Origin: a virus
Length of the DNA: 45,665 nt
Virus record (IMG/VR): IMGVR_UViG_3300009184_000073
Span: 1-45,665 of that record
Strand: one strand, 5' to 3'
Part shown: one piece after another, positions 529 to 36,299 of the stretch
How the letters are laid out: every line of letters starts with the position of its first letter
Numbering within the stretch: position 1 is the stretch's first letter
Notes under the pieces: generated by a model
Database searches by the model: none
Seen by the model: the letters and a program-made list of their open reading frames with translations, nothing else
Told to the model about the DNA's origin: nothing
Made by a program: the position numbers and the translations under genes

Positions 529-533
529 CGCTC

Positions 534-726: not shown

Positions 727-764
727 ACGTATAAGAATACAGCAAGGATCGTGCCAGCTTTTTT

Positions 765-986: not shown

Positions 987-1046
987 CTTTGAGAACCCCA
1001 GAGACAATCCGTTTCATATGCCACCAACGGCAACGCAGGAGTTGAT

Positions 1047-17581: not shown

Positions 17582-20500
17582 GCCGCGAGACTCAAGTCCC
17601 ATCCATTCCGGAGGTCAGGAGCGATAATGTTCTTGAAGTCCTCCAGGCCATCAAAAACACCATGCAGGTGCGAGAGGGCCAGATTGGAAATCCGCTTGAT
17701 CAAGCGGCGACTTTGCGCGACCTTGTTGCTCTTGGCGTCGCCTCCGAAGATGCGGCTGGATCTGGGACTAAAAGCGGATCTGGAAGCATCCCGGTCAATC
17801 CAACGCTGACTCCTGGCGGCAGCTACAACGCAGTCACGGACCTTACGACGCCTCCCCCTCCTGTGGGGCTGGTTGCCTCAGGCGGATTTACTAATGTCTA
17901 CCTTGAGTGGAGTGGCGCCCCTTACCAAAACCATGCTTATACAGAGGTGTGGCGCGGCACAGTTGACTCTCAGTCCGAAGCTGTGTTGGTCGGCGCCACG
18001 ATCGGCAATGTTTACGCAGATCCTGCTGACGCAAGCAGCACTTACTACTACTGGATTCGGTTTGTTTCCAAGGCGAACGTAACCGGCCCATTCAACTCTT
18101 CCTCCGGCACAAAAGCTCAGACGGCCCTTGATTCGCGAAAAATCCTTGACGCTCTCAGCGGGAAGATCACCGAGACTGAGCTGTATGCCGGTCTTGGCAA
18201 ACGTATCGAGCTGATCGATTCTCCGTCCAGTGAAGCTGGGGGAGTCAACTATCGGCTCAATCGGGAATCTATTGCTCGAGCGGCTGCAATTCAGGCAGAG
18301 GCATCTGCTCGCGCTCAAGCCATTCTTAATGAGGCAGCGTCCAGGGCAAGCGCAGACTCCAATCTTCAGACTCAGATCAACACGCTGACGGCTGCATCTA
18401 CTGGAGACTTGAGCAGTGTTCTTGCGGCGCTACAAACTGAGCAGACTGCGCGTGCATCAGGAGATGCTGCTGAGGCCGCCAGCCGCGAGACACTTGCCGC
18501 TCAGATTCGCGGTACTTACTCTGGAACAGATGTTGCGCAGCTAACAACGGGTCTGGTTTACAACGAGCGGGTAGCTCGGGCAAACGCTGACGGAGCCTTG
18601 TCAAGTCAAATCTCGGCTCTGTCGTCCACAGTTACCACGAACTACAACACCCTAAATGCCGCGATCACGACCGAGGCATCAACCAGGGCAACCAATGACA
18701 CGGCGATCAGTAGCAGCCTGACATCGCTAAGCTCTCAGGTCAACGACTCAGTAACAGGATTGCCTGCCACGCGTTCGTCGCTGCTGACAAACTACTACAC
18801 CAAGGCCGCCACAGACAGCGCAATCTCAACGGCATCGACGACTCTGACTAGCGCGTACGGCGCAGCAGATGCGACTACGCTTTCAAGCGCTCAAGGTTAC
18901 GTTCAGAGCTACGCGTACACAAAAGCCGAAACCAATAGCGCAATTTCAACTCAGGTAGATACGGTCTCTTCCCGTTTAAATGTCGGCGGAGACATTTACA
19001 GCTCGATTCAAACCGAGTCCACGACAAGGGCAAACGCAGACAACTCGCTGTTCGCTCAATACACAGTCAAGATCGATACCGGCGGATATGTCTCTGGGTT
19101 TGGTCTGGCGTCAACCTCTACTGGCGCAACGCCATCTTCTCTGTTTGCGATTCGTGCAGACGCTTTTGTTATCGGGCCGTCTACTCCTCCCGCCTACATC
19201 AGCACTACAACGTACGTGCTTAATGATAGGGTGAGCTACACCTCCGGCGGATACAAGATCTACCGATGCAAAGCCACAACAACTGGCCGCGCACCAACTG
19301 ATACGGCTTACTGGGAAGAGATTACCAGTCAGCTTCCATTCATCGTCACAACCACGCCAACGGTGATTGACGGCGTCACGTATCCGGTTGGGGCGTACAT
19401 CCGCTCTGCGTATATTGCCGACGCCACAATCACCAGCGCAAAGATCCAAAGCCTTGTTGCCGACAAGATCAGCACTGGCTCCCTGACCGCGGCCATTGGC
19501 GTTACAACAGGCTACCTGTCCGGAGGCCTCAATCTCGCCTATTCTCCCGGCGACTCTTCGGCTGGTACTGGATTCTTCCTTGGCAATAACAGCGGCGTCT
19601 ACAAGTTCTTCGTCGGAAGCCCTAACAATAACGTACTTTGGGATGGCACTAACCTTCAGGTAAGAGGCACGATTTACGCTAGTGCCGGTACGGTTGGCGG
19701 CATTAGCATGACTGCCAGCTCTCTGTACTCGGGGCAGGTTGCGCTCAACTCTGGTCAAGGATTTTTTCTCTCCTCGACGGGCACATTTTCAGTTGGCAAC
19801 GGCGGCAGCCGAAAACTCTCCTGGGATGGCAGTGACCTTGAGATTTCAAGCGCGGGACTGACAGTTAGCGGCGGCAACGCCACGTTCTCTGGAGAACTGA
19901 AAGCCGCGAAAGGCTCTTTCAGTGGCGTGCTTGACGCGGCAAAGGGAACATTCGGCGGGGTTCTGGAGGCTGGCGTTTTGGACGCGAGCCAGCTCTCAGG
20001 CCAAACATTCACTTACCCAAACTCTGGTAGCTACACCGCCTATACAACGACTGCCACCATCAGCACTGTGCGATTCACCCTTGTTGGGGCCGGCGGCGGA
20101 GGTGCGGGCGGAGGCAAGCAATACACAGGTGGTGGTGGAAGCCCAGGTTCTGTTGTAAACATGACGGTTTACAACATCTTGCCAGGAAAGACAATTTCAG
20201 TTGTTGTTGGCGCCGGAGGGGCTGGCGGCGGACCTGTCAGCAATGCCAACAGTCCACAATCCGGCGGCTCTGGTGGTAACACGCAAATCACCATTGGCTC
20301 GGATACCTACGTAGCCAACGGCGGGTCTGCCGGAACTCCGCTATCAATGAGCACCAGCTACGACCAGACATACACCAATGGTGTATCGATGGCGTACCGG
20401 ACAAATGACTACGGCGACTTTGCTGTGGTTCAGTCGATACCGGGTGTTCCGGCCAGCGTCGATGGATCGATTGGCGGCGATCGAGGTGGATCTTACTTTG

Positions 20501-21192
20501 GCAGCAACGTCACTTACCGCGCAGCCTCTGGAACCCCCAGCCTGCTCAACGGCGGCTCTGGTACCCGTGGCGGCGGTGGCGGAGGTGGCGCTCCGTCGGC
20601 CGCATACGTCAGAAACCGTGGCTTCTACATTGATCCAGCGGATGGCGACGGCGGCGATGGTAGCCCGACGACAGCCGGTGGCTCCGGCGGAAACGGCTAC
20701 GCCAAGATCGAGGTATTCAACCCGAACTCGGTTGTTCTGAAGAGCGACTACGACACGTTCCAGGAAACGCTTAACCAGCGCCTTACCTACCTTGACAACT
20801 TTGGCAGCATCAGCAATCCGATAAGGTATGTCGGTGGCGGCTTTGGCTGGGATAACTATCTTAATGGGAGAGGCAGCTATGTTTCTGGCGGAAGCGTAAA
20901 GGTCTCAAACCTAAGCACCACAAAGCTGCTTCGTGTGCGGGCAAAGTTTATCGTGACTCCTACTACCGACGATTCTTTTGCGTTCCGAGTAACCGTAAAC
21001 GGTTCCGTAGTTCAGTCATCGAGCTTCTACACTGGATATAGCACAAGCCAATATACGTTCACCGTTGGCACTTTCGATGTCGCCGCCGGTCAGACGGTGA
21101 CCGCAATCCCGTCTTGCTCGGTTATTTCTGGGGGCGGCGAAGACAGTCTGACCGTCAACTCTGTGATCTTTGAAGCGGTAGGCTTTTTCTAA
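17578..21192 (+). CDS. J-like central adhesin, FN3/CBM/Gly-rich (1204 aa)
   Basis: The domains in order are as follows. A short N-terminal anchor comes first, then a Pro-rich linker and a fibronectin type III domain (about 90-178). Next is a long helical/coiled-coil part rich in ASxRA and NTL repeats (about 215-500), which resembles the C-terminal half of lambda J. A segment like FAIRADAFVIG precedes a small CBM5/12-like carbohydrate-binding module (about 537-585, TYVLNDRVSYTSGGYKIYRC with a later Trp). A beta region follows (600-830), then a Gly-rich region (about 835-1045, with long G runs) and a beta-sandwich C-terminus. It probably contacts the host surface. Gly-rich tips in some phage adhesins form polyglycine helices; that is a comparison, not proof. 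Confidence 0.75.
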   Translation: MSRETQVPSIPEVRSDNVLEVLQAIKNTMQVREGQIGNPLDQAATLRDLVALGVASEDAAGSGTKSGSGSIPVNPTLTPGGSYNAVTDLTTPPPPVGLVASGGFTNVYLEWSGAPYQNHAYTEVWRGTVDSQSEAVLVGATIGNVYADPADASSTYYYWIRFVSKANVTGPFNSSSGTKAQTALDSRKILDALSGKITETELYAGLGKRIELIDSPSSEAGGVNYRLNRESIARAAAIQAEASARAQAILNEAASRASADSNLQTQINTLTAASTGDLSSVLAALQTEQTARASGDAAEAASRETLAAQIRGTYSGTDVAQLTTGLVYNERVARANADGALSSQISALSSTVTTNYNTLNAAITTEASTRATNDTAISSSLTSLSSQVNDSVTGLPATRSSLLTNYYTKAATDSAISTASTTLTSAYGAADATTLSSAQGYVQSYAYTKAETNSAISTQVDTVSSRLNVGGDIYSSIQTESTTRANADNSLFAQYTVKIDTGGYVSGFGLASTSTGATPSSLFAIRADAFVIGPSTPPAYISTTTYVLNDRVSYTSGGYKIYRCKATTTGRAPTDTAYWEEITSQLPFIVTTTPTVIDGVTYPVGAYIRSAYIADATITSAKIQSLVADKISTGSLTAAIGVTTGYLSGGLNLAYSPGDSSAGTGFFLGNNSGVYKFFVGSPNNNVLWDGTNLQVRGTIYASAGTVGGISMTASSLYSGQVALNSGQGFFLSSTGTFSVGNGGSRKLSWDGSDLEISSAGLTVSGGNATFSGELKAAKGSFSGVLDAAKGTFGGVLEAGVLDASQLSGQTFTYPNSGSYTAYTTTATISTVRFTLVGAGGGGAGGGKQYTGGGGSPGSVVNMTVYNILPGKTISVVVGAGGAGGGPVSNANSPQSGGSGGNTQITIGSDTYVANGGSAGTPLSMSTSYDQTYTNGVSMAYRTNDYGDFAVVQSIPGVPASVDGSIGGDRGGSYFGSNVTYRAASGTPSLLNGGSGTRGGGGGGGAPSAAYVRNRGFYIDPADGDGGDGSPTTAGGSGGNGYAKIEVFNPNSVVLKSDYDTFQETLNQRLTYLDNFGSISNPIRYVGGGFGWDNYLNGRGSYVSGGSVKVSNLSTTKLLRVRAKFIVTPTTDDSFAFRVTVNGSVVQSSSFYTGYSTSQYTFTVGTFDVAAGQTVTAIPSCSVISGGGEDSLTVNSVIFEAVGFF

Positions 21193-21514: not shown

Positions 21515-22126
21515 ATGTCCGTTTTTAGCCATCAAAAACTGCGCGAAGCACTCGCTTCGGGGCTGGGGAAAACCCTGACCCCGGAGCTTGCTGCGCAGAT
21601 TGAGGCTGGCGCATTTGACTGGGAGGACCACTCTCACGATCCGGCCAAGTTTGGCTCTGTCCCGTATAAGGACTACGTCATTCAGGTCGAGCGCTTTCGC
21701 GACATCCTCCCCGAGATGCATGAGTTGCACGTTGAGCACTGGAAGGAGACTGAGCGCCATCGTCATGGGCTGGCGCTTAACCCGAACTACGACGCGGTAA
21801 TTGCTAGTGAGAAAGCTGGGAAACTGATCCAGTTCACGATGCGCCATAAGAGTGGTGAGCTTGCCGGAAACCTGAGGATGTACTTAGTTACCAGCATCCA
21901 CACGCAGACTAGGTATGCGTCGGAGGACACCCTGTACATCAAGCCTGAGCATCGCGGCGGCTTTGCTGTGATGGCAATTCTTAAGTTTGCCCAGGACTCC
22001 CTGCAAAGCATCGGCATTCATGAGATCAGGGCGAATAGCAAGCTAGTAAATCGGGCGGATGTCCTGATGCGGCGCATGGGCTACAACCCCGTTGCCATCG
22101 AGTTCGTGAAAATTTTTGAGGCTTAA
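21515..22126 (+). CDS. GNAT-like acetyltransferase (203 aa)
   Basis: GNAT enzymes move an acetyl group from acetyl-CoA to an amine. The likely fold spans about 70-200: MYLVTSIHTQTRYASEDTLY is a central beta strand followed by IKPEHRGGFAVMAILKFAQD. The arginine-glycine turn (HRGGFA) sits where the acetyl-CoA pyrophosphate loop lies. Strand HEIRANSKL and helix VLMRRMGYNP complete it. The N-terminal 60 residues (LREALASGLGKTLTPELAAQ) are helical and could be a targeting segment. It sits among virion genes rather than early genes, so it may be packaged. The substrate is unknown. Confidence 0.7.
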   Translation: MSVFSHQKLREALASGLGKTLTPELAAQIEAGAFDWEDHSHDPAKFGSVPYKDYVIQVERFRDILPEMHELHVEHWKETERHRHGLALNPNYDAVIASEKAGKLIQFTMRHKSGELAGNLRMYLVTSIHTQTRYASEDTLYIKPEHRGGFAVMAILKFAQDSLQSIGIHEIRANSKLVNRADVLMRRMGYNPVAIEFVKIFEA

Positions 22127-22128
22127 TC

Positions 22129-23205
22129 ATGTGTAGTGACGCTCCGACTCCAGATCCGCTGATTGGCGAATCCGCCAGGATGAATGCTCAGACGGCTAAA
22201 GAGTCGCTTGAGTGGTATCGAAATCAGTACGCAACCGAAATTGCGCCTCGCATGCAGCGCGACCAGGAGCTGCGCGAGGGAATGATCGGCGACTTGCGGT
22301 CAAGCATGAAGCAGCAGCAGCAGTTTGCTGAAGAGCAGAATGCCTACTACAAGTCTACGTTCCAGCCCATCGAGCAGAAGATGGCTCAGGAGGCGATGGA
22401 CTATGACTCCCAGGCCAACATTCAACGCCGACAGGGTATCGCTGCCGCCGCGGTCAACCAGCAGTATTCCCTTGCCGCCGGCCAGCAATCCCGTTTGCTT
22501 TCGCGATATGGCCTGAACCCTAACAGTTCCGCTTTCGCCCGAGAGAATGCCAAGCTGACCAACGCCCAGGCCCTAGCTTCCGCCGGAGCTCAGACTGGCG
22601 CAGCCTTTGACACGATGGATCGCGGCATTGCGTTGCGAGCCGGCGTCTCAAACTTTGGTCGCAACATGACCAACACGGCGGCGCAGTATTACTCTAACTC
22701 CGGGAATGCTGCCAACAACATGTCCGGCATCTCGTCCGCCGGCATGGCTAACGCAATCAGCGGAACAAACGTGATGAATCAGGGCTACCAGACTGCCATC
22801 CAGGGCAATCAGTCTGCCGGCAACCTGATGCTTGGCGACTTCCAGGGCCGGATGCAGGGCTATCAGGCTCAACAGCAGGCTATCGGTAGCGCGATGCAAG
22901 GGATTGGTATGGTGGCCGGCATGGGTATGGGCGCCCCTGTCGCAGGCGGCGGCTCCGTGTTCGGAAATCTTTTCAAAGCCGCCGATGGTGGGCACATCAA
23001 TGCCAAGGGCTTGCGCATGGCGTCTGGAGGCGAAGTCAATGGCGCCGGCGGCCCCGTTGACGACAAGGTGCCGGCCATGCTTTCGGATGGCGAATACGTT
23101 GTCCCTGCGGACGTTGTCAAAGCAAAGGGTGTCGAGTTCTTCGACAGGCTGCGTCAGAAATATCACACGCCTGCCGCCGTTCAGCGCGGGCTTCGGAGGT
23201 CTTAA
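22129..23205 (+). CDS. Putative internal virion protein (358 aa)
   Basis: The sequence is helical, Gln/Asn/Ala/Gly-rich and low in Cys: an N-terminal charged helix (AKESLEWYRNQYATEIAPRM), a Gln-rich coil (about 60-100), then Gly/Met-rich repeats (about 180-300) suited to a flexible or membrane-active protein. The C-terminus holds VDDKVPAMLSDGEYVVPADV and KGVEFFDRLRQKYHTP. The VPAMLSDGEYVV element also occurs near the ends of other phages' tape-measure or internal proteins (from memory). With the next two genes it probably forms the DNA-ejection set of the short tail. Confidence 0.65.
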   Translation: MCSDAPTPDPLIGESARMNAQTAKESLEWYRNQYATEIAPRMQRDQELREGMIGDLRSSMKQQQQFAEEQNAYYKSTFQPIEQKMAQEAMDYDSQANIQRRQGIAAAAVNQQYSLAAGQQSRLLSRYGLNPNSSAFARENAKLTNAQALASAGAQTGAAFDTMDRGIALRAGVSNFGRNMTNTAAQYYSNSGNAANNMSGISSAGMANAISGTNVMNQGYQTAIQGNQSAGNLMLGDFQGRMQGYQAQQQAIGSAMQGIGMVAGMGMGAPVAGGGSVFGNLFKAADGGHINAKGLRMASGGEVNGAGGPVDDKVPAMLSDGEYVVPADVVKAKGVEFFDRLRQKYHTPAAVQRGLRRS

Positions 23206-24920
23206 TGGGAATCGCTGCTGGAATTGGTGGGTTTGCCGAGGGTCTTGGCAGAGGTATTAAGCTATCTTCGGAAATGCGCGAAGCCGAAGAGCGCAAAAAA
23301 GATGCCGAGGAGAGACGAAAGTTGATGGCTTTGCAAGCCGAGGCCGCGGGCCTTCAGCTTGAAGACCTCAAAGATACGCGGGCCTACAACGTCGCTCGAC
23401 GCAAAATCTTTGATGAAGTGTACGGCGATACCGGTCCCTCGGCGCCAGCGACCGTTGTTCCAAATCCAGCCGCTGCATCCAATGCGGCGCCGGCTTCCGC
23501 GCCGGTAGTTGGCGCACCGATGGCTATGGATTTGCCTAAGCCAGGAGACTTGGATGGGCCTCCCCCTCCTCCTGCCGGAATCAGAACTCCCGGCCCTGCC
23601 CCAGAGGCCGCAGTTCCAGCAGCCGCAGCTCCCGCAGGCATTGCTGCCCCCGCATCCGATGCCGTCGCGCCAAAACCAAAGAACGACTTCGATCGAATGA
23701 TGACTGCTTGGGATCGTACCAAGCAGCTCGACATGAAGTACGGAAAGCTGTCACCGCTTGACGCTATTAAACAGGCAAGAGAGTTCGACAAGCTCACGAA
23801 TGAGGGTTTCATCGATGCTTTCCAGTATCTTGCATCAACTGGCGATGAAAAAGGAGCTATCGCCAGATTCAACCAGTTTGGCAGTACCAAGGTTCCAGAA
23901 AATACCACGTTCAAAACGGTTGATCGTGAGGTTATTCCTGGAGTTCCCGATTCCAAGCAGAAAGACTATGTGGCCGTTCTGCCTAATGGACGCGAAATCA
24001 GCTTCATGGACACGATGCGCAACTCGCTCAACCCCAGAGAGCTTGCTGACATCACCACCAAAACCGGCCTCGGTATTGCTGAATACAGGCTAAAAATGGA
24101 ATCCGAGGCAAGACAAACTCGTCAGGGCAATCAGCTATACGATCTGACAAAGCTCAAGTACGACAACCTGATCGCTGAACAAAAGTCGCAGACTGCTATT
24201 GCGCTGGAGCGCCTTGGTCTTGCTAAAGATCAGGCTCGATACGAGCGCACTCAGCAGGCGTTCAACGGTTCTTATCTGGAGATTGCCAACACGATTGGCA
24301 TCATGAAGAACTTTGATCCGAACAAGGCATCCGATTCTGAGATTTCTCAGCACCGAAACAGACTTGCTGTGGCAAGTGCATCTCAATCAGTTTTTGAGAT
24401 GAACTTCGATCTTAAATCCGGTAAGCCGGCAATCAGTCCGCAACAATCGCTTGAGGTGGCCCGCCTCGCGGCAGAGAACCCGGGCCAAGTTCGCAAAGAC
24501 GAAGCCACCGGCTTCTCATACATTGATTACGGAAAGCGGAAGATCTTTGTTCCGGGCTCTTTGGCCCCGCAACAACCTCCCCAGCCTGCTCCAGGCGCAG
24601 CTCCGGCCCCCGGAGCGGCTCCGGCACCATCTGCTCCCCGTCCCGGGATGCAGTCTGCTCCTCCTGCTCCTCCTGCGCCGAGCCGGCTAAACGATTCCGC
24701 TCCTCCGGCAGTTCAGCAGATCGGTTTGCAGCTTGATGCAGCTCGGGAGCTTTATGCGTCTGCTCGTCAGAAACTGACCACATTTGGCTCGCAGCAGCGG
24801 AAGATGAACCCGCAAGCTTTTGCTGCGGCAGAGGATGACGCAAGATCGGCGGCAGCCGTAGTAGAGGAGCTAGAGAATAAATACCGGGCAGCACTTCCTG
24901 CCAGTATTCGTGGTCAGTAA
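23205..24920 (+). CDS. Putative internal virion protein (571 aa)
   Basis: This protein overlaps the gene before it (TAATG) and precedes the giant gene by 18 bases. An N-terminal Gly-rich segment (MGIAAGIGGFAEGLGRGIKL) leads into a charged coiled coil (about 20-60). A Pro/Ala linker (about 75-150) follows, then a helical middle (about 160-420, with YDLTKLKYDNLIAEQKSQTA), and a second Pro/Ala linker (about 455-500) before a C-terminal helix. Such helix-linker-helix proteins often act as ejected internal proteins in podoviruses. Position supports this; no enzymatic motif is seen. Confidence 0.6.
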   Translation: MGIAAGIGGFAEGLGRGIKLSSEMREAEERKKDAEERRKLMALQAEAAGLQLEDLKDTRAYNVARRKIFDEVYGDTGPSAPATVVPNPAAASNAAPASAPVVGAPMAMDLPKPGDLDGPPPPPAGIRTPGPAPEAAVPAAAAPAGIAAPASDAVAPKPKNDFDRMMTAWDRTKQLDMKYGKLSPLDAIKQAREFDKLTNEGFIDAFQYLASTGDEKGAIARFNQFGSTKVPENTTFKTVDREVIPGVPDSKQKDYVAVLPNGREISFMDTMRNSLNPRELADITTKTGLGIAEYRLKMESEARQTRQGNQLYDLTKLKYDNLIAEQKSQTAIALERLGLAKDQARYERTQQAFNGSYLEIANTIGIMKNFDPNKASDSEISQHRNRLAVASASQSVFEMNFDLKSGKPAISPQQSLEVARLAAENPGQVRKDEATGFSYIDYGKRKIFVPGSLAPQQPPQPAPGAAPAPGAAPAPSAPRPGMQSAPPAPPAPSRLNDSAPPAVQQIGLQLDAARELYASARQKLTTFGSQQRKMNPQAFAAAEDDARSAAAVVEELENKYRAALPASIRGQ

Positions 24921-24938: not shown

Positions 24939-27900
24939 ATGGCCTTGTTTGAAAACCCTTACGACCCAGAAGACAGCAAAGAAGAATCCGGATCCAAAGG
25001 GTTTGGTCTTCGTCTATACAAAAGCGCATCTGAGGCATTTAGCCAGGACGTATCTCCCAGGGCTTACGCAGAAAGCCGTGCCGCTACTCCGCCGGCGACG
25101 GGAATGCAAGGTGCTTTTCAGTCTGTGTTTGGCCCGCAAAAGCCCGTTGCCGGCGGCGCCGCCTCGGGCGCTTCCGCTGGCGGCAGCGATCTTCAATCCG
25201 CGTTTGCCTCAGTCTTTGGCAATGCTCCGGTCGCCGCACCAAAGCAAGAAGAACAGGGCAACTTCTCTCGTGGATTCTCAGTCTCCGGCAAGCAGCTCAA
25301 GCAGACGCTGTATGGAACCGCCGCCCTTGTTGGCGACACCGTCGGCTCAAGCACTGTTCGTGAGTGGGGCCTGAAAGGCTATAAGGACGCCGAGAAAGAG
25401 ATTCAGGGGATCAGCAAAGAGTCCGACTCCTTTACCAGCGCGGTAAGCACCGGAGAAATTGGAAAGTGGCTCGGCTACACCAGCGGCTACCTTGTGGGTC
25501 AGGTCTCTGAGATGGGCGTCGCCGCCCTTGCTGGCGGCATTGCAGGCTCTGCCGTAGCCCCTGGCGCTGGCACTGTTACTGGTGCCGTGACCGGCGCCAT
25601 TGAGAAGGGTGCTGTTCAGGCCGGCATCCGTGGCTTCGTCGGCAAGATGATCGACAAGGAGGCGGCAAAGATCGGCGCTGAGCTCGCGGCCAAGGGCGTC
25701 GCCAAAGAAGTGGCTGAGCGCGAAGCCACCATGCTGGCCACGAAGTCCGTGTATCGGATGATCGGCGCTAACACAGCGAACACGTTCCTGAACGCCACAG
25801 GCGAGCTTGGCGCTATCTACGGCGATGCCGTCGAGGAGGCCGCTAAGACTGGCCAAGAGTATTCGCTTGGCAAGGTCTGGCTATCCGGCATTGCCGCCAC
25901 CGCCGTCGATTCCTGGGCCGACTCCAAATCTCTTGGCAAGCTCATGGGATCGCTTGGCGGCGACAAAGCCATCCGTGGCGTGGCTATGGAAGCCCTCAAA
26001 GGCGGCTTGCGTGAGGGATTGACCGAAGGCACGCAGACAGTGATTGAGCGTTGGGGTGCAAACAAAGACCTCACCAGCCGCGAGGCGTTTAAGGACTACA
26101 TCGACTCGGCTGCCGTCGGCGTTCTTGGCGGTGGCGTTTCTGGTGCCGCATCTGGCGCCATCAACAAACTGACAGCAGGCCCCGACACCAAGCCCGGCGG
26201 CGCTCTTCCGGATGAGAGAGGAAGGCCCATCGATTCCGGCGCCACCGCCGACGAACGTGCCGGCCTGCTCAATCAGCGTCCCGCAATCCCCGTTGATGAA
26301 GTGACTAGCTCACTGCGTGACCCCGGTCAACTGGCATTTATTTACAACAGCGCGGACCCAGACACCCGCCAGTCCATCGAGCAAGCGGCATACCGCGTTG
26401 GGATTACCACCGAGCAGTTCCGGGCCGCGGTCAACAACAAAGCCAACATTGCAGCCGGCCAGGCCGTGCTTGGAAATGAGCCGTTGTTTACCCAGGACTT
26501 GATTGCTGGCATCGAATCCTTTGCCACTACACCTCCGGTCAATCGTGGACCAAAGGTGATGAACATCAACAAGACCGCCACTGCGGCGCCGTCTCAATTT
26601 GACTTGCTCGGTACCGAGCCGCCCACAAGCTCCGCCGCTCCCGCCGCCGTCGTAGAGCCTCAGCAACAGCAGCCCGCCGCGCCAGCCGCCCCGCTCACCC
26701 TGCGTCAACGCCTTATCAACCAGTTTGGCGCTAACGAATCCATTCCTCAGGGCTGGGAGATTTTGGGCGAGGGCAAGTACGGGATCATCTCTGCCCAAGA
26801 GCCTTATAGCCCAAGTGCCGACATTCATCGTCGCGTCTACACACATAAGTCACTTGGCGGACTTTGGTTCAATAAAGAAAAAGATGTCTTCGATGCGCTG
26901 AAAATTCGCCGCGAGTCTGGCGAAAGTGTTTCCGCTATCGCGCCTGCGCAGCAGCAGGCCCCGGCTCCCGCAGCAGTTACGCAAACAGCGCCTTCTGCGC
27001 CAAACAAAGTTCAGCTCAAAGACGGCAGCACCGTCACGTTGTCAAAGACGGCTGCGCCAAATGCATTTAGCGCTCTAGTTCGCTCACAATACGGGGAGCC
27101 TATCGCGATCGTGGCGCTAGATGCATCCGGCGCCGAGGTGGGGCGCCTTACCTATATGGAGGGCGGCGGGCCAATTGATGTTAAGGTTCCTGAGAAAGAT
27201 CGCCGGAAAGGTATTGCTACTGCGCTGTACGACGAGCTGGAATCGGCGGGCGGCAAGCTCCCCGATGTGAATTCGGGCGTAGCTATATCGGATGCGGCCC
27301 GCTCTGTTCGTGAGTCGCGTGAACGGCAAGCCTCCGCCACTCCAGCTACACCCGCTGCCCCAGCGCCTGTCGAGCAGGGAGTCCGCAGTCCAAGTGAGCG
27401 CGAGCGCAATAGCTTCGCCGCCTGGGCGGCTATGGACCTTAACGACAGAAAGTACCTGTTCGCCAAAGAGGGTGGCCAGTACGAAATCTTGGTTTTCGAC
27501 CAAGGGAAAAATCGCGTTGAGTGGGCTGTCCGAAATATTGGCGACACTCGATCCAACGTCTTGTCCGAAGGAAGGGCATTTCCCGAGGACATTTCTCCTC
27601 GAATGGCAGCTCTGTTGACGGAGCTGTCAAAGACTAAGGTAGAAAACACCGCTCAGCGTGACGCTTTGATGGGGCAGATTCAGGCGGAGGCTATGCAGCA
27701 GTCCGCCTCTTCAGCGGCTCCAGCAGCAGAGTTTAGTCCTGCCGCTGATCAAAATATCAGCGAAGCTCAGACGCCCTCCGCCCCCAGGGCCCTTGACGTC
27801 GGCCGCGAGGCTCTGCTTGAAGCCCATTTCGAGGACGAGTTCGCCAAGATCCGCGGCAAGCAAGGCAAAACCGCTAAGGACCGCGCCGAGAAGCTAGTTC

Positions 27901-30900
27901 AGATGATGCGCGGACAGGGCATGCCCGAGGAGACTGTCCAGCGCATCGCCTCCGGGAAGTCCGGCGAGCTGGCTCAGGCCAAGCAGGCAGCTATTGATGC
28001 CGGCGCCAACTTGTTCGACGCCCTGACCGATGTCACCGGCGCCAAGCTGAACATCACCGGCCAGCGTTACACCGTCTCTGATCTGCCTCCTGCGCTAGTC
28101 AAAGTCATGTCCGCGCTGGTAAAGCTGGGCTACGTCAAGTTCAAGGACATCAGCGCCGAAGTTCTCAAGCGCATCTCCGCCAGTGAGAACTGGAAACATC
28201 TCACTAAGTACGTGACGCCGGCCATGCTGCGTCAGGCTTACAACTCTCTGCCAGACTTTGAGGGCAAGGAGACGCTGGGAGCTGAAGGTAAACAGCCGGC
28301 CAAGTGGATGGCCACGCCTCCGGCCGAGCTGCTGCCTGAGTCGAGTACCGTCAAGTCAACCACCACTCAAATGACCGGGGCCTTGAAGGCCGAGGGCAAA
28401 AACCTTCCTGAGCCGCTGCCAAAAACGCAGGTGCAGGCCGAGCAGGCGGAAGCGAGAACTGGTGCAGCCCCCGCGCCAAAAACCGTAACTCAAGAGATTC
28501 GCGGCCGCATTAAGAAGATGCCGCTGGGCAAGGACTACGACAAGGCCAGCCAGCTTCTGAACGAAGGCAAGTACGACGAGGCTGAAGCCGTCGTCAACGA
28601 CTGGTACCGAAAGCAACAGGAGCCTGACAAAACCCAGGTCAAGGGCACGCGCCGTGTCGCAGATCTTTTGTCCCGAGTGCGAGAAAAGTTTGGTATCGGC
28701 GAGACCAACGTCGTTACCTTGGGTGGCGAAGAAGTCACCCGCGGTGGTTTCGAGTCGACAACCATTGCCAAGAAAGTCGAAGAGCTTCTGTCCGGCGAGC
28801 CGACCAAGGCAAACATCGAAACTGTGCAAGAGCTGTTGCAGATCGAGGCGACTCGCTTGGCTGAGGCTCTGCTTCTGAATGGCCGGTCCAGGGCATCCGA
28901 GCAGCTCTTCAAGTACATGGACCTCGGCTACGCCAAGGTTGCCGAGCAGCGCAAGCTGGCAGGCAGCTACGAATTCGCCGAGGAAGATGGTGATTTCTCC
29001 GCCGACAACCGAGTCGAGACGCTCGGCATCACCTTCGATCCGACGGCTCGACCCCTGAGCGACGAGGCCCTCAATAAGCTGCCCAACATCAAGCGATATC
29101 TCTCGAGCTTGACCCAAGCGAAGCAGTGGGCGAACCGATTCGTCCTGGGCAAGTTCAGTGGTGGTCGCCTTGAGGCTCTGAACGCTACGTTTGGTCGCCT
29201 GCTTGAGTACAAGGCTCGCGAAGAAGCCATTCGAGAGAGGCTGCTGAAGAAGCAGATTGACATGCCCCTCGACTCCGAGATGACGCCCGCGCAGAAGCGC
29301 CTTGAGGCCCGTCTGGATCGAGTGTTCAGCCGCCTCACTGGCGCCGGCGTTCTGAGCGAAGGCCTGCAAAACCTGCGCGACCGCATCGCCGAACTGGACG
29401 ATCAGATCCGGAGCATGGATTCTGACGTGGTCGAGATTGAGGGTGCCGGCGGCAAGAAGCGCACAGTCATCTCCCGCCGTAGCGAGCGGCTCGACGACAT
29501 GCGTCATCTGTTTGGCTTCAACGACGAGAGCAACTACGCCCTGCGTGACGAAGGATTCACCTCCGATCGTGGCGACAGCGACCGGGATGCTCTTGTCTAC
29601 GAGCGTCGCAAGCTGTCGCAGGAGCTGGAGGAAGCGACCAAAAAGAGCGCGTCCGGAAAGGCTAAGCAGTTGCGCATTGCCTTGGACAACATCATCGACA
29701 AGATGATGATGGCAGCCCAGGCGGCTCAGGCTGTCGGCATGTCGTACACCGACATCGCAATGGTCACCGCCAAGTACGGCGACTTGCTGAGCATGATCTC
29801 CGGAGAGAAAGCGGGCGGCGAGACGGCGCGCCGATTCCGGACCGACATCGATAACATGACGGCATCCGGCGTCCCTGCCGCTCAAGCCCGTCAGTCGGTG
29901 CTGGCTAAGTACGTAGAAGCCGGCCTGATGAACGAGGACGGCTCCGTTCGTTTGGCCGAGGACGCAAAGCGAATCCGCGCCGAGATAGAGGAAGACGGCT
30001 TTAACACGGCAGAAACACTGACGGGAGACCTATTCGAGGCCAACAAACTGGCCGAGGCAGTGGCTTCTGGTCAGATGTCTCCTGAGCAAGCGGCCCGCGA
30101 GGCTGGGGCAACAGACACTCGCGAGGTTGTGCGGGAGGCGATGGGCAAGCTGGCCGACCAGATGAAAAACCTGTCTGCCGATCAGCGTTTTGCCAAGCTA
30201 AAAGAAGTTGCCGTCTGGGTTGCCAAGAACATGCGGTCGCAAGACCTGACGTTCCGAGACGTCCAAGAGGCTTTCCGCTCACGCGGCATTGACTTCCCGC
30301 TAGAGATGGTGAGCAACACCTTCCTAGCTGTTCATACACCGATGCTCGACTACGCGGAATCGAACGGCGGCGGATATGCCCCCCGCGAGTTTTGGCTTCG
30401 CTCGATGGATCAGGCTCTTTCATTTAATGGAAGTCTGCTGTACCAAGGCCCATTCTCGGAGGCTGAGGTGCAGATGTATGAAGAGTGGAAAGATCGCCAG
30501 GAGGAAATGCTGTCTCGCCGGAAGCCTGCTCAGATTGCTTACGGGACGAATTCCGACGAGGCATTCAGCGGAATGCTGTTCATGAAGTACGGGCTTGCGC
30601 AAATGCGCAATCCACGATTGATTGCCAGCGAGCGCGATCGCCTGATGCTTACCAACTCGATTTCTGATCTGGTTGGTGCATGGCACCGTGATCTGGCTCT
30701 CGCTCTTGAAATGCGTCCCGATCTTCGCTCCGAGCTGCTGGACATTGATAGTGGTTCGGTTCTCCCCACCGACTACACCTCTCACCAGCGATGGGTAGAG
30801 CAGCAGAACAAGGTCAACGCCCGCAAAGCGGCGATCATTGAAAAGTCGCAGTACCACCTTGCCCTGCCGAGCCTACAAGGCCTGAGCGACACGGAGATCG

Positions 30901-33900
30901 TGGCCCTTAAGGATCGGCTCATAAAGGCCGATGTGGCAGAGTATGACGCGATTCTTCAGCAGACCAACAATCTGGCCGCCATTCGTAGCGGCGCAAAAAC
31001 CAGGATCGATCCGGAGACTGGGGAAATAATTAGCGAGGCGGATGCCGCTGCTGCCGATTACGTATCCGACCTGTTGGAGCAAGAGCAGAACAAAGAATTT
31101 GCTCTTGAGGTGGACGGATCCTTCGGTCGAGACTTGGCATACGCCAACGAGGATACCGCGCAAACTGAGCGAGACAGCAGCATCGATCAGATTGCGGACG
31201 AGGAAGGAAACGAGCTGATTGCCGAGCGCGAGCAAGTCGCCGAAGAAGTCGATCAAGAGGTGTCTGACTCAGAGAGGATCAAGCTCGACGACTCTTCGCG
31301 TTTCAAGCGCGGCTTTTTTTCTGGTCGCCTTACCCATGCGGTGGTGGCCGACATGGTTTCTCGCCTGACTGCCGGCTGGAAGGGCGCTCCGCAGATCGTC
31401 GTCCTCAAGAACGTGGCCCAGCTCCCCGACGGAGTGCGTGAGCGGGTCATGGCTAAAGGTCTTGATGCCGCCGGCCTGTTCGATGGCGAGACCGGCATGG
31501 TCTACATCTTCTCGGACTTTGTCTCTAGCGAAGCGGATGTCCAGTTTGTCCTATTCCATGAGGTTGATGGTCACCTCGGCATGCGGGCGTTCCTCGGCAC
31601 CGAGTTTGACTCTTTCCTTAACCTCATGTACCGCACCCGCCCAGAGGTGCGCAAAGCTGCCGACGAGCGAATTGCTCGCGGCATGCCAAAACTTGAAGCG
31701 ATCGATGAGGCTTTGGCCGACATGGCCGGCGAAGACCGCAACGTCTCTGCCGTCAAGGCCTGGGTTGGAAAAATCATTACAGGCCTTCGCAAACTTGGAT
31801 TCGGAAAAGTTGCTGACTGGATGGCAACCCTGACTGATTCCGAGCTGGCGTATCACCTCAAGAGCGCCAAGGATGCAGCCCGCAATGGCGGCTACCGACT
31901 TCTCAACGGAGCCCCCGGAGAGATCCGATTTGCCGAAGCCAAACACGACCGCCTGTACGAAATCTTCTCGGTCAAGGACGGCAAGACCACGGCTTATGCT
32001 AGGTTCAACCCGATCCAACAGACCTGGGCGGTGTACGAAAACGACGGCGACGATGTGCGCCTGAGCTTCACTGTGCGCGACATGGCCGAGTACCCCCGCG
32101 TCATGGCGGTCATGCGCGGCAAAGGCAAAGTCGAGTTCCGCAAACGCTCGGGCCTGTTCATCGACGACAAAATTAGTATCGATCTGGTGAAGATGCCCCG
32201 CGCTGAAGATCTCAACGCCGTCCAGCGCTGGATGCGATCGATGATCACGAAGTACCAGAACGAGTTCCGTCCTGTCTTTGATGTGGTCCGCACCCTGCGC
32301 GGGGCCGGCAAGATCAACCAGTACAACGACCTCGAATTGGCGCTTAACAATTGGGAACGTAAGGCCGGCGCCAAGATTGCGGAGTTCCGAAGAAAAATTG
32401 TGCAGCCAATCTCTCAGCTAACCAAGGAGATTGGTAAGGCCGGCGGTAGCTACGACTTCATCAACAAGTACCTGATCGCTCGTCACGCTGTAGAGCGAAA
32501 CAAGCGAGTCTCAAAAGTTAACCAGGACTCCAGCAGTGGCTCGGGCATGACAAACGCGGAGGCGGCCGAAATCCTTAATGAAGCCCAGGCCAAACCATTC
32601 TTCAACCTGCTTGAAGAACTTGGGGCCAAGGTTGACGAAATGTCAAACTTCAAGATCAACTACCTTCGCAACACCGGAATGATCACCGGCAAAGCGTGGG
32701 CAAAGATGAAGTCGGCCTACAAGCATTACGTCAACCTCAGCGGCGAGAAAAGCGCTGACGGCTTTGATCATGTTGACGACCCTGCTTGGATGGTTGGACA
32801 GAAGTTCAACGTCAAGGGCGTCGAGAAGCGGGCATTTGGGCGAGAGGGCTTGGCGGAGGATGTCCTGGCTCGCACAGTCTTGGGCGCTGAGGCGGCAATC
32901 ATTCGGGGTCAGAAGAATCTGGTGGACCTGACTCTGCTGGCTATGCTTGAGTCGAATTACGACCCGAACTTCGCCGTCATTAACGAGATCTCATACATCC
33001 GAAAACTCAATGAGGATGGACAGGTAGATAGTGTCGAGGACGAAAAATATATTAGCCGCAAGGATGTGATGGTGGCTAAGGTCAACGGCATACCAGTGAC
33101 CATTCGCTTCAAGGACATGAGCAAGGGGTCTTTCGGCGATGCTATGTTTGGCACCGTCTATCCAAAAGAAACCAGCTCCTTCATGGAGGCCCTTGGCTGG
33201 TTCAACCAGAAGATGGGCCAGATGCTCACGACTTACAACCCGGCATGGGTTCCCGTCAACTTCATTCGTGATGCCGGCAACTTGTTCTTCAACGCCGCCG
33301 CCGACAAACGCTTCACCAACGCCCAAGCCGCTCAAATGCTGCGCCTGATCCCGAAGGCTGCAAAGGTGGCGCTGCACATTGCCAGTAACGGCGCTCGGTT
33401 TAACAACGTGGATCCGGAGGTGATGCGAATGTACCGGGAGATGGAGCGCGAGGGCGGCCTTGTCAGCTTCATGGATCGCAAGGGCTTGGAAGAGCAAGTC
33501 AAAGAGCTGCACGCTCTGCTGGGTGATCGGAACAAATTGCAGAAGGCGGGAGACACACTTCAATCCTTCCTGGACAAAATGGAGTACATGAGCCTGCCGA
33601 TGGAATTGGCTCCCCGCTTGGCGGCATACACGGTTGCTCGCCAAAGCGGCATGTCAGCCAAAGAGGCAGCCAAGTTCGCCGGCGAGATCACCGTGAACTT
33701 CAACATGCGCGGCTCAAACAAGGCGGTGCGTCAGCTCTTCCTGTTCTTTAACCCGGCAGTCCAGGGTTCCGCCAAGCTGCTTAGCCTGTTCGGAGAACTT
33801 ACTCCTGACTACAAGCTCAAGTTGAAAGCTAAAGGTTGGTACTATGCCTCTGCATGGATCGCTTTGGGTGCGCTCGGCAACCTCATGGCTCGAGCCTTCT

Positions 33901-34892
33901 CGGACGACGACGAGGATGGCCGTAACGCACTCGACAAAGTGCCAACGTATAAACGAGCAACTTCACTGATCCTTGCTGTTGATGTTCCTGGCGCCGCGAT
34001 CCCAATCCCGTACGGCTGGAACGCCTTCTTTGCAATGGGCCACTTCATGATGGACACGCTGCTTGGCATCCAGCCTCTGTCGGTGAGCGCCGGGCGGGTA
34101 GCCAAGGCTGCATTCGAGGCGTACTCGCCGATTGGTGGCGCTGGCCTTGACTCCAAGAACCTCTCCACCGGGATTGCTAAGGCTGTTGCACCAACCGCAA
34201 CCCTGCCCATCGTTGAGTGGATCGCCAACGAGAACCGCTTCGGCGCTCCGATCCGAATGACCGGAGATAACTTTGGTGGCGCTGTCAAACCGGAAAGCCA
34301 GATGGCGTTCCGCTCTGTCTCGCCGATCTCGCAGGGCATCGCCAATGCAGCGAATGAGCTGTTCGGCGGTAACAAGGCGAAGGCCGGGCCGCTTGACTTC
34401 AACCCGGCGGCAATGGACTTCATCATCAGCTCATACCTTCCAGGCGTGATCAACGAAACCTACAAGGCGGCATCTACCGGAGTTCGCGTCGCCAGGGGTG
34501 AAGAGATCAAGAATACTCCTCTCCCAATCATCGATCGGTTCACGGCTAAGACGCCTGAGGGTTTTGATGCCGGCGCATTCCGTCGGGCCAAAGAGATGAT
34601 CGAGACGGCGTACAGGGAGTATCAGATGTACCCCGAGCGACGCGATGAGATTCGCAAAGAATCACCGGGCCTGATGAGGGCGCATGCTGTGGTGGCTGGC
34701 GCCACGCAACAGATCCGCTCTATGCGATCAACGCAAAACGAGATCGAAATGAACCCCAGGTTCACCGAGGCCGAGCTGGTTTCTCGCCGCAACGAGATGC
34801 GCAAGCGTGAAGATCAGGTCTACAAGCGGGCGGTGAAGGCGGTCATGGAGGCCGGGCCTGAATACCGCGAACGAGTCATGGCAGCAGACTAA
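24939..34892 (+). CDS. Giant polyvalent virion protein (3317 aa)
   Basis: It is probably packaged and injected with the DNA; very large polyvalent proteins are known in Bcep22-like and other podoviruses. Visible parts in order: an N-terminal disordered region (1-105); a GFSVSGKQLKQTLYG helix region (about 108-160); Gly/Ala-rich possible membrane helices (about 175-240 and 391-410); Pro/Ala linkers. A small domain around 587-660 follows, then a GNAT-like segment (about 690-790) with EKDRRKGIATALYDEL near 755-770, and a small beta domain (about 815-900). Long helical and coiled-coil stretches run from 945 to 2100. A zincin-type metallopeptidase candidate shows HEVDGHLG, with H2207, E2208 and H2212 (about 2130-2330). 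An LPD38-like region (about 2735-2990) shows NFIRDAGNLFF and FLFFNPAVQG. The tail is helical. GGAG at 24930-24933 precedes ATG 24939. I see no lysozyme or transglycosylase motif. Confidence 0.8.
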   Translation: MALFENPYDPEDSKEESGSKGFGLRLYKSASEAFSQDVSPRAYAESRAATPPATGMQGAFQSVFGPQKPVAGGAASGASAGGSDLQSAFASVFGNAPVAAPKQEEQGNFSRGFSVSGKQLKQTLYGTAALVGDTVGSSTVREWGLKGYKDAEKEIQGISKESDSFTSAVSTGEIGKWLGYTSGYLVGQVSEMGVAALAGGIAGSAVAPGAGTVTGAVTGAIEKGAVQAGIRGFVGKMIDKEAAKIGAELAAKGVAKEVAEREATMLATKSVYRMIGANTANTFLNATGELGAIYGDAVEEAAKTGQEYSLGKVWLSGIAATAVDSWADSKSLGKLMGSLGGDKAIRGVAMEALKGGLREGLTEGTQTVIERWGANKDLTSREAFKDYIDSAAVGVLGGGVSGAASGAINKLTAGPDTKPGGALPDERGRPIDSGATADERAGLLNQRPAIPVDEVTSSLRDPGQLAFIYNSADPDTRQSIEQAAYRVGITTEQFRAAVNNKANIAAGQAVLGNEPLFTQDLIAGIESFATTPPVNRGPKVMNINKTATAAPSQFDLLGTEPPTSSAAPAAVVEPQQQQPAAPAAPLTLRQRLINQFGANESIPQGWEILGEGKYGIISAQEPYSPSADIHRRVYTHKSLGGLWFNKEKDVFDALKIRRESGESVSAIAPAQQQAPAPAAVTQTAPSAPNKVQLKDGSTVTLSKTAAPNAFSALVRSQYGEPIAIVALDASGAEVGRLTYMEGGGPIDVKVPEKDRRKGIATALYDELESAGGKLPDVNSGVAISDAARSVRESRERQASATPATPAAPAPVEQGVRSPSERERNSFAAWAAMDLNDRKYLFAKEGGQYEILVFDQGKNRVEWAVRNIGDTRSNVLSEGRAFPEDISPRMAALLTELSKTKVENTAQRDALMGQIQAEAMQQSASSAAPAAEFSPAADQNISEAQTPSAPRALDVGREALLEAHFEDEFAKIRGKQGKTAKDRAEKLVQMMRGQGMPEETVQRIASGKSGELAQAKQAAIDAGANLFDALTDVTGAKLNITGQRYTVSDLPPALVKVMSALVKLGYVKFKDISAEVLKRISASENWKHLTKYVTPAMLRQAYNSLPDFEGKETLGAEGKQPAKWMATPPAELLPESSTVKSTTTQMTGALKAEGKNLPEPLPKTQVQAEQAEARTGAAPAPKTVTQEIRGRIKKMPLGKDYDKASQLLNEGKYDEAEAVVNDWYRKQQEPDKTQVKGTRRVADLLSRVREKFGIGETNVVTLGGEEVTRGGFESTTIAKKVEELLSGEPTKANIETVQELLQIEATRLAEALLLNGRSRASEQLFKYMDLGYAKVAEQRKLAGSYEFAEEDGDFSADNRVETLGITFDPTARPLSDEALNKLPNIKRYLSSLTQAKQWANRFVLGKFSGGRLEALNATFGRLLEYKAREEAIRERLLKKQIDMPLDSEMTPAQKRLEARLDRVFSRLTGAGVLSEGLQNLRDRIAELDDQIRSMDSDVVEIEGAGGKKRTVISRRSERLDDMRHLFGFNDESNYALRDEGFTSDRGDSDRDALVYERRKLSQELEEATKKSASGKAKQLRIALDNIIDKMMMAAQAAQAVGMSYTDIAMVTAKYGDLLSMISGEKAGGETARRFRTDIDNMTASGVPAAQARQSVLAKYVEAGLMNEDGSVRLAEDAKRIRAEIEEDGFNTAETLTGDLFEANKLAEAVASGQMSPEQAAREAGATDTREVVREAMGKLADQMKNLSADQRFAKLKEVAVWVAKNMRSQDLTFRDVQEAFRSRGIDFPLEMVSNTFLAVHTPMLDYAESNGGGYAPREFWLRSMDQALSFNGSLLYQGPFSEAEVQMYEEWKDRQEEMLSRRKPAQIAYGTNSDEAFSGMLFMKYGLAQMRNPRLIASERDRLMLTNSISDLVGAWHRDLALALEMRPDLRSELLDIDSGSVLPTDYTSHQRWVEQQNKVNARKAAIIEKSQYHLALPSLQGLSDTEIVALKDRLIKADVAEYDAILQQTNNLAAIRSGAKTRIDPETGEIISEADAAAADYVSDLLEQEQNKEFALEVDGSFGRDLAYANEDTAQTERDSSIDQIADEEGNELIAEREQVAEEVDQEVSDSERIKLDDSSRFKRGFFSGRLTHAVVADMVSRLTAGWKGAPQIVVLKNVAQLPDGVRERVMAKGLDAAGLFDGETGMVYIFSDFVSSEADVQFVLFHEVDGHLGMRAFLGTEFDSFLNLMYRTRPEVRKAADERIARGMPKLEAIDEALADMAGEDRNVSAVKAWVGKIITGLRKLGFGKVADWMATLTDSELAYHLKSAKDAARNGGYRLLNGAPGEIRFAEAKHDRLYEIFSVKDGKTTAYARFNPIQQTWAVYENDGDDVRLSFTVRDMAEYPRVMAVMRGKGKVEFRKRSGLFIDDKISIDLVKMPRAEDLNAVQRWMRSMITKYQNEFRPVFDVVRTLRGAGKINQYNDLELALNNWERKAGAKIAEFRRKIVQPISQLTKEIGKAGGSYDFINKYLIARHAVERNKRVSKVNQDSSSGSGMTNAEAAEILNEAQAKPFFNLLEELGAKVDEMSNFKINYLRNTGMITGKAWAKMKSAYKHYVNLSGEKSADGFDHVDDPAWMVGQKFNVKGVEKRAFGREGLAEDVLARTVLGAEAAIIRGQKNLVDLTLLAMLESNYDPNFAVINEISYIRKLNEDGQVDSVEDEKYISRKDVMVAKVNGIPVTIRFKDMSKGSFGDAMFGTVYPKETSSFMEALGWFNQKMGQMLTTYNPAWVPVNFIRDAGNLFFNAAADKRFTNAQAAQMLRLIPKAAKVALHIASNGARFNNVDPEVMRMYREMEREGGLVSFMDRKGLEEQVKELHALLGDRNKLQKAGDTLQSFLDKMEYMSLPMELAPRLAAYTVARQSGMSAKEAAKFAGEITVNFNMRGSNKAVRQLFLFFNPAVQGSAKLLSLFGELTPDYKLKLKAKGWYYASAWIALGALGNLMARAFSDDDEDGRNALDKVPTYKRATSLILAVDVPGAAIPIPYGWNAFFAMGHFMMDTLLGIQPLSVSAGRVAKAAFEAYSPIGGAGLDSKNLSTGIAKAVAPTATLPIVEWIANENRFGAPIRMTGDNFGGAVKPESQMAFRSVSPISQGIANAANELFGGNKAKAGPLDFNPAAMDFIISSYLPGVINETYKAASTGVRVARGEEIKNTPLPIIDRFTAKTPEGFDAGAFRRAKEMIETAYREYQMYPERRDEIRKESPGLMRAHAVVAGATQQIRSMRSTQNEIEMNPRFTEAELVSRRNEMRKREDQVYKRAVKAVMEAGPEYRERVMAAD

Positions 34893-35350
34893 TGACCTGC
34901 GTTGTCGCCTCCACCAAGCACGGATGCGTAGCGTCCGATACTAGGTGCAGTTCCGACAGCGCAATGGTTTCCGTAAACAAGATCCGTCGCGTTGGTCGCT
35001 CGATCATCGGCGCTGCGGGAGATTGGTCCGATGTCCTGAAGTTCTGGGACATGATCGAGCGCAAGAAGAAGAAAGACACCGGGCTTACTGAAAGCTCGGA
35101 GCTGGAGGCTATCGAGCTTCACCCTGGCGGGATCTTTCTGTACAACTCCAGCGGTTTGAAGTACGCCGTTAAAGACGAGTACTTCGCCATTGGGAGCGGA
35201 GGGCCATATGCGATGGGCGCATTGGCTATGGGGGCCACGCCAGAAGAGGCGGTAGCAATTGCTACCCGCTTCGACCCCAGCACGGGCGGCGAGGTCGAGG
35301 CAATGTACTTGAAGGTAGCAAATGGCATCAAGCAAACTAACCGAAGATGA
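34892..35350 (+). CDS. HslV/proteasome-like Ntn hydrolase (152 aa)
   Basis: After removal of Met1, Thr2 would be the catalytic nucleophile: the start MTCVVASTKHGCVASDTR matches the HslV/proteasome beta pattern (T-T-I-V then a Gly/Asp-containing strand, here ASD). KIRRVGRSIIGAAGD (residues about 29-43) fits the K-V-R-R-L and later G-(F/A)-A-G part of HslV. FAIGSGGPYAMGALAMGATP, then EEAVAIATRFD, matches the end of the fold. It would cleave peptides as a barrel of several subunits. It overlaps the giant gene stop (TAATG), so the two are coupled. The substrate may be the giant protein or host proteins; that is inference. Confidence 0.8.
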   Translation: MTCVVASTKHGCVASDTRCSSDSAMVSVNKIRRVGRSIIGAAGDWSDVLKFWDMIERKKKKDTGLTESSELEAIELHPGGIFLYNSSGLKYAVKDEYFAIGSGGPYAMGALAMGATPEEAVAIATRFDPSTGGEVEAMYLKVANGIKQTNRR

Positions 35351-36299
35351 GTTCATAGCTCTCTGGAGAGAGCATCAGTCCTCCTCGATTATTTCTCGTA
35401 TTACAGGAATTGACGTCCGAGGTATACAGCGCCGCAGGGCTAGGCTTGAAGCGATGGGGACCGCCCTTCCGTCTGTTTATAAACCTGAGCAAGCTCGCAC
35501 AGCAGGCAACGCTGAGCTGGTCATATCGGCCCGCCGAGACGTCAACCGGATAACCATCGACGACGGCACGATCATCGTGGGGTCGGATGCTCACTACTCG
35601 CCCGGCGTAATTCCAGTAGCGCACAAGGCCCTCTGCAACGTGCTTTCGGATTTCGGAACCGAGGTCAAGTTTGTAGTGCTTAATGGCGACATCCTGGATG
35701 GCGGATCTATTGGCCGCCACGACCGCATTCGGTGGCAGCGCAAGGTCAGTATCAAGGACGAGCTAGAGGCGGTTCAGGAACGTCTCGGAGATATCGAGAA
35801 GGTTAGGCCTGCCGGGTGCAAGCTGTTGCGCACCTATGGCAACCATTGCGCTCGGTTCGAGACTAGGCTCTCGAACAATGTCCCGGAGTATGAGGGGATT
35901 GGCGGCTTCCTGCTGCGCGACCATTTGCCATTTTGGACAGATTCCCTGCGTATTGACGTTAATGACGACATGGTCATCATCCATGACTGGCACTCGGGGG
36001 TCCACTCTGGCTACAACGATGCGCTCAAGGGTGGCTGTCATGTAGTCACAGGCCACACTCATGAACTTAGCGCCAAGGCCGTGCGCGGTTTTAAGCAGAC
36101 TCACTACGGCATCAAGACCGGGATGCTGGCAAACGAATACCAAGAAGAGTTCGACTATCGACAAGGCAAGCCGGGATTTAACTGGCAGTCCGGGTTCGCT
36201 GTCTTGACTTGGAGGGATGGCGTTCTTTTGCACCCCGAGTTCTGCGCCGTGCGCGATGATGACAAGGCCTATTTCCGAGGGAAGCTTTATGCAGACTAA
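35322..36299 (+). CDS. Metallophosphoesterase with N-terminal HTH (325 aa)
   Basis: This is a calcineurin-like phosphoesterase: the five metal/phosphate motifs are all present (GSDAHY with D89 and H91; NGDILDGG with D123; GNH with N174 and H175; IHDWHSG with H221; TGHTHE with H245 and H247). It would hydrolyse phosphodiester or phosphomonoester bonds using two metals. Residues 1-45 (EDEFIALWREHQSSSIISRI then IDVRGIQRRRARLEAMG) look like a helix-turn-helix. That suggests DNA targeting, as in phage-encoded nucleases of this family. The gene overlaps the Ntn hydrolase gene by 29 bases. Confidence 0.85.
   Translation: MASSKLTEDEFIALWREHQSSSIISRITGIDVRGIQRRRARLEAMGTALPSVYKPEQARTAGNAELVISARRDVNRITIDDGTIIVGSDAHYSPGVIPVAHKALCNVLSDFGTEVKFVVLNGDILDGGSIGRHDRIRWQRKVSIKDELEAVQERLGDIEKVRPAGCKLLRTYGNHCARFETRLSNNVPEYEGIGGFLLRDHLPFWTDSLRIDVNDDMVIIHDWHSGVHSGYNDALKGGCHVVTGHTHELSAKAVRGFKQTHYGIKTGMLANEYQEEFDYRQGKPGFNWQSGFAVLTWRDGVLLHPEFCAVRDDDKAYFRGKLYAD

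Follow-up and report, generated by a model that had tools for sequence, protein, structure and literature searches.

The 3317-residue protein encoded by a single gene of this uncultured, podovirus-type phage is probably a polyvalent protein of the LPD38 type that is carried inside the virion and ejected with the DNA, and in which conserved delivery ends enclose an exchangeable enzymatic middle. The window analysed here is the whole of one IMG/VR virus record, 45,665 bases in length, and the open reading frame, which has an ATG start and a TAA stop, occupies 9954 of these bases (21.8%), in agreement with the 22% given for positions 24939-34892 by the initial annotation. A second IMG/VR record (52.7 kb) encodes the giant at 99.9% identity across its full length, which indicates that it is not an assembly accident. 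Its parts are as follows.

24939..34892, + strand: giant polyvalent-type ORF, 3317 aa (ORF call; full-length match in the second record)
25239..26618, + strand: conserved N-terminal block with Gly/Ala-rich helices, aa 101-560 (52-57% identity in three relatives that lack the GNAT)
26991..27338, + strand: GNAT acetyltransferase module, aa ~685-800 (matches in other giants, PDB profile search, AF2)
27201..27218, + strand: predicted acetyl-CoA-binding motif RRKGIA, aa 755-760 (R-K-G-I-A invariant in nine aligned GNAT segments)
27360..28013, + strand: cargo-slot sequence private to the window phage, aa 808-1025 (without counterpart in the close relatives L089, L090 and L091)
28014..28274, + strand: short conserved helical block of 87 aa, aa 1026-1112 (41-52% identity in all three relatives; AF2 pLDDT ~95 over most of it)
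28293..31328, + strand: charged, mostly helical linker, aa 1119-2130
31341..31838, + strand: predicted zincin-like metallopeptidase domain, aa ~2135-2300 (AF2 secondary structure; invariant H/E/E)
31557..31574, + strand: HEVDGH (HExxxH) predicted active-site motif, aa 2207-2212 (sequence and alignment)
31707..31709, + strand: Glu2257, proposed third zinc ligand (invariant in 37/37 covering alignment rows, partly picked for holding the motif)
32226..34889, + strand: conserved helical C-terminal domain, aa 2430-3317 (relatives in viral and bacterial contigs; AF2)
33924..34529, + strand: LPD38 (PF18857), aa 2996-3197 (E=1.2e-22, 81.3 bits, cut-off 27)

LPD38, which had been proposed for the end of the protein, is the sole Pfam match on the giant, while PHROGs families to which no function is attached span residues 2173-3304. 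Matches to the C-terminal domain have been found in 129 phage records, 370 confirmed viral-contig stretches and 53 bacterial contigs, mostly of Proteobacteria; the domain is common to phages of Burkholderia, Vibrio, Ruegeria and others, and it also occurs in prophages, mainly in Proteobacteria. A homologous domain is likewise carried by phi315 and phi367, short-tailed phages of Escherichia represented in a public proteomics set from CsCl-purified phages (PXD061229, PMC12502783). The AF2 model of aa 2130-3317 has a mean pLDDT of 81.6 and a pTM of 0.72. When this model was compared with viral predicted structures using Foldseek, 72 matches below 1e-3 were obtained, the named ones being mostly annotated as polyvalent proteins. 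Against the PDB nothing was returned below E=0.5, another zincin appearing at noise level only. As no PDB structure significantly resembles the C-terminal fold, a packaging role is suggested for it by analogy. Taken together, a C-terminal LPD38, disparate predicted activities (GNAT and zincin) and a late, virion gene setting are the features of an LPD38-type polyvalent protein.

The zincin motif named in the initial annotation is borne out by both the alignment and the model. HEVDGH is an HExxxH variant, not HExxH, and the AF2 model places an N-terminal helix and three strands ahead of a long helix with HEVDGH and a later helix with E2257. This predicted layout is that of the HExxxH set of zincins, in which a helix and three strands come before two C-terminal helices, the first with HExxxH and the second with Glu. 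Residues H2207, E2208 and E2257 do not vary in the alignment; since its rows were partly selected for the motif, an independent count was made on 75 non-redundant giants chosen by their C-terminal domain only. HExxH or HExxxH was present upstream of that domain in 56 of them, against 2.0 expected by shuffling. The types were divided into 28 HExxH, 28 HExxxH and 19 with neither in the scanned stretch, an assignment made mechanically (the last HE match within a fixed 530-aa stretch), so that single cases may be wrong. The 19 relatives that have neither motif suggest that protease activity may be dispensable in some of these proteins.

Following the proposals of Iyer et al. (2017; PMC5512222), the zincin probably cleaves its own chain, before or after ejection, which would free the enzymatic middle. 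The same authors list as an alternative that such proteases are effectors acting on host proteins, and the motif changes between HExxH and HExxxH at least 11 times on the tree of C-terminal domains, as if the protease were itself exchangeable cargo. We regard an effector role as unlikely, considering that the zincin holds a constant place N-terminal of the C-terminal domain, with a similar distance (median 310 aa) kept between its motif and the anchor motif of that domain, which suits a role in the chassis, and that P1 DdrB is cited in PMC5512222 as being processed before packaging. Self-processing is thus preferred. The N4 virion RNA polymerase (vRNAP) is packaged unprocessed according to Iyer et al. 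(PMC5512222), so a zincin need not imply cleavage before packaging. No report of a cleavage product of an LPD38 giant was found in the literature examined.

The exchangeable character of the middle is seen on comparison with three close relatives, L089, L090 and L091, from records 3300027588_000004, 3300043907_000016 and 3300047404_000033; the last of these is L089, and this record terminates inside the giant. All three retain aa ~101-558, ~1026-1112 and ~1690 onward at 41-57% identity, mostly 45-57%. Residues ~665-1025, which include the GNAT, are absent from all three, and aa 1119-1690 are present in L089 only. At the level of the aligned sequences, the giant is therefore built from an exchangeable middle flanked by conserved ends. 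The L089 giant (ORF start 7959) carries at aa ~745-890 an insert of its own of ~150 aa, VVLTGRSQYVTKDQAK...RPYNVGERQVAEHL, which has no Pfam match and is probably an undescribed payload domain. In another related record, L010 (3300007519_000072), the giant at 459-4426 does not lie in a single reading frame (matches at 459-1643, 1637-2248 and 2486-4426), which could reflect a frameshift, a sequencing error or two genes.

The GNAT-like segment of the initial annotation has been placed at aa ~685-800, where it was first seen through relatives. A Pfam scan of the window protein alone did not detect it, and the first match was to Acinetobacter phage Ab9, at a looser tblastn limit and again as a short query. 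Amino acid identity is 57-67% with the giants of L155 and L157 and about 32-33% with those of L158, L163 and Ab9, and the corresponding segments of the last three are recognised as Acetyltransf_1 above the Pfam cut-off. A nine-row profile of these segments, compared with the PDB, matched known or putative N-acetyltransferases exclusively up to E=0.1, with a best value of 2e-4. In AF2 the segment is a confident one (pLDDT roughly 80-95 over most of it) within an otherwise poor model. The strands and subsequent helix fit the core beta-beta-beta-alpha arrangement, and motif A (R/Q-x-x-G-x-G/A) is present. Foldseek matches of the low-confidence N-terminal model to acetyltransferases (probability up to 0.98, E=0.04 or worse) are used as support only.

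With L155 and L157, the GNAT core also has 68% DNA identity over 150-160 nt, and no other part of their giants matches that of the window. The occurrence of the same GNAT in otherwise unrelated proteins points to exchangeable cargo. The 2463-aa giant of L157 (4749-12137) combines an N-terminus resembling N4 vRNAP (phrog_2206) with the same GNAT, a zincin motif and, at its C-terminus, a match to a PHROG named DarB-like; judged from its sequence, it is a chimera whose parts belong to different families of giants. L157 was also considered as a bridge between N4 and the window family, and was rejected as such, its C-terminal domain not being detectably related to that of the window giant.

It could be argued that the GNAT is carried passively, or is decaying, in a giant that is purely structural or mechanical (an ejection conduit) and does not modify the host. 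Its core is short (~115 aa), AF2 gives no clear strands beyond the motif-A helix, and the close relatives manage without it. Nonetheless, motif A (R-K-G-I-A) is intact, with no variation among nine sequences, and related short GNATs are found in at least five unrelated giants, which argues for selection on activity and makes a passive passenger quite improbable. An active GNAT is therefore favoured, and by analogy with the functions proposed by Iyer et al. (2017; PMC5512222) it would probably acetylate a host protein early in infection.

The remaining parts of the giant are less readily classified. For the N-terminal 2150 aa, neither Pfam nor PHROGs returned a significant hit, and tblastn found no counterpart in the phage collection at 1e-5; bacterial genomes yielded no relative of the N-terminal block. 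This block is a possible membrane- or envelope-interacting part. Of the membrane helices previously suggested, what can be recognised are two Gly/Ala-rich stretches (aa 189-207 and 390-408) with Kyte-Doolittle means of 1.42 and 1.32; this hydrophobicity is marginal, and they are not canonical transmembrane segments. Similarly, long coiled coils appear doubtful, given that aa 1100-2130 are rich in charged residues but, when tested crudely, lacked a sustained heptad signal. Within the linker, aa 1119-1690 are shared with L089 alone, and the sequence from ~1690 onward with all three close relatives.

PHROGs annotation of the window places the giant in the late region, preceded by terminase, portal/adaptor, major capsid and internal virion genes. 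Its immediate neighbours are as follows.

22129..23205, + strand: virion structural protein, BcepIL02 gp66 homologue (phrog_8003 E=2.6e-56; BcepIL02 match E=5e-14)
23205..24920, + strand: 571-aa probable virion protein immediately 5' of the giant (phrog_9667 E=8e-4)
34892..35350, + strand: HslV-like Ntn hydrolase (phrog_1040 E=1.6e-32; kept at 61-64% in the two relatives that reach past the giant)
35322..36299, + strand: metallophosphoesterase-like gene (phrog_221 E=4.2e-21; 66-67% in the same two relatives)

The 571-aa gene occupies the position of BcepIL02 gp69, a likeness by position alone. Two genes upstream of it, at 21515-22126, lies a standalone GNAT-like gene (phrog_1249 E=5.5e-12), at a position equivalent to that of BcepIL02 gp65, a putative acyltransferase; together with the GNAT of the giant, the late region thus has two acetyltransferase-like proteins. 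Further upstream, a 1204-aa gene (17578-21192) with glycine-rich domain and Phage_Tail_Tip matches is mosaic in sequence among close relatives, as expected for a host-range tail protein. Beyond the giant, a 569-aa ORF at 42014-43723 is 55% conserved in L010. The nearest capsid protein is that of Rhizobium phages (50%), and no Rhizobium phage was present in the tally of records that match the C-terminal domain of the giant.

The HslV-like hydrolase that had been pointed out next to the giant is indeed there (PF00227 E=2.5e-7), with the sequence MTC...SD...NK, in which a Thr after the initiator Met, followed in order by an Asp and a Lys, may correspond to those of proteasome-type peptidases. Its ATG overlaps the TAA of the giant by one base (TAATG), consistent with coupled translation. 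Genes of the HslV type are present in 533 of 50,697 phage records, and among the loci collected the gene adjoins the giant only in close relatives. Given that the adjacency is limited in this way and that HslV is common in phages, it is poor evidence for a special functional pair.

Together, these data suggest the following course of events. The giant would be packed in the phage head and, by analogy, is probably delivered into the host alongside the DNA, its presence in the virion being inferred. Its conserved ends would form a delivery chassis, where the Gly/Ala-rich helical block at the N-terminus probably contacts the envelope, and the zincin and the ~880-aa helical C-terminal domain, again by analogy, most likely control packaging and ejection. 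The slot between these ends would hold a payload that differs from phage to phage, in this case the GNAT.

The giant is real, well conserved and probably virion-delivered; it belongs to a class already described, within which its combination of domains is its own. As in the polyvalent proteins described by Iyer et al. (2017), it is a large multidomain protein with a zincin-like MPTase of the HExxxH set, a GNAT and an LPD, and its gene lies with the late genes for virion proteins. Polyvalent proteins already described include the HExxxH variant of the zincin and a family of GNATs (PMC5512222), so the suggestion that the giant may be undescribed does not extend to its domains or theme; it holds for the exact order of N-terminal block, GNAT, HExxxH zincin and LPD38, found in no other record searched. 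In Ab9 (2839 aa) and L158, a related GNAT (~33%) likewise sits in a giant with a zincin motif, but the Ab9 giant has PBECR5 and a weak LPD22 signal, L158 has LPD22, and neither resembles the window giant beyond the GNAT.

The Bcep22 group (Lessievirus; BcepIL02 gp70, JC1 gp69, Bcep22 gp75) is similar in genomic place, in size class and in having a zincin followed by an LPD38 C-terminal domain. BcepIL02 also has several virion and tail genes in common with the window, its giant being at the equivalent position. Virions of JC1 purified on CsCl yielded 51 unique peptides of gp69, covering 15.6% of it (PMC9144972), and this syntenic protein upholds the initial placing of the giant as an LPD38-type, Bcep22-class protein that is probably injected; virion presence is established for JC1 and is probable for the window giant. 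The similarity between them amounts to 24% identity in the C-terminal domain, with no BLAST similarity outside it, and the Burkholderia phage giants carry SLT, methylase, helicase and LPD3 where the window giant carries a GNAT and an HExxxH zincin. Giants of this kind are named DarB-like by PHROGs and GenBank, as is BcepIL02 gp70, whose place and C-terminal domain match, and it has been proposed for the Bcep22 group that they enter with the DNA and shield it against type I restriction. For the window giant such a function is very improbable. BcepIL02 gp70 has SLT, methylase and helicase signals, LPD3, a zincin motif (HEAFH) and LPD38, and JC1 gp69 has annotated YtxK/COG4646/HepA matches, while no Pfam match to a methylase or helicase was obtained in aa 1-2159 or in the whole window giant, and what they share is limited to the zincin and the C-terminal chassis. 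The antirestriction annotation derived from Bcep22 is thus not supported, and the earlier idea that the protein protects the incoming DNA is left without specific support.

Ejection is established for the N4 virion RNA polymerase (Schitoviridae), whose C-terminal domain is composed of an HExxH subdomain C1 and a large helical C2 of no known fold (PMC12633501). The order of a membrane-type N-terminal domain, an enzyme, a HExxH/zincin and a large helical C-terminal domain is common to both proteins. The window giant differs in having no RNA polymerase, with no match to phrog_2206, a family that N4 vRNAP matches over its full length. The zincin cores align in a profile comparison (P=0.0018; reversed control 0.25). 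Homology of C2 to the C-terminal domain of the giant was considered and set aside, as the comparison was not significant (P=0.05; reversed control 0.2), and none was demonstrable between the N4 N-terminal domain and the N-terminal block. With the zincin cores alone aligning significantly, it is proposed that the giant works like N4 vRNAP, and not that it belongs to the same family. The passage of proteins of 300-400 kDa through a short phage tail, and their action in the cell, is a question that these giants share with N4. The window giant usefully demonstrates cargo exchange, and its family, a large natural series with constant ends and a varying middle, makes it possible to ask directly if the ends are sufficient as a signal for packaging and ejection, and if the payload is released by the zincin. 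Somewhat speculatively, short-tailed phages might share one modular ejection chassis, a zincin followed by a conserved helical C-terminal domain, ahead of which payload enzymes, and even the type of protease, are exchanged between unrelated giants, the RNA polymerase of N4 and the GNAT of the window phage then being two such payloads.
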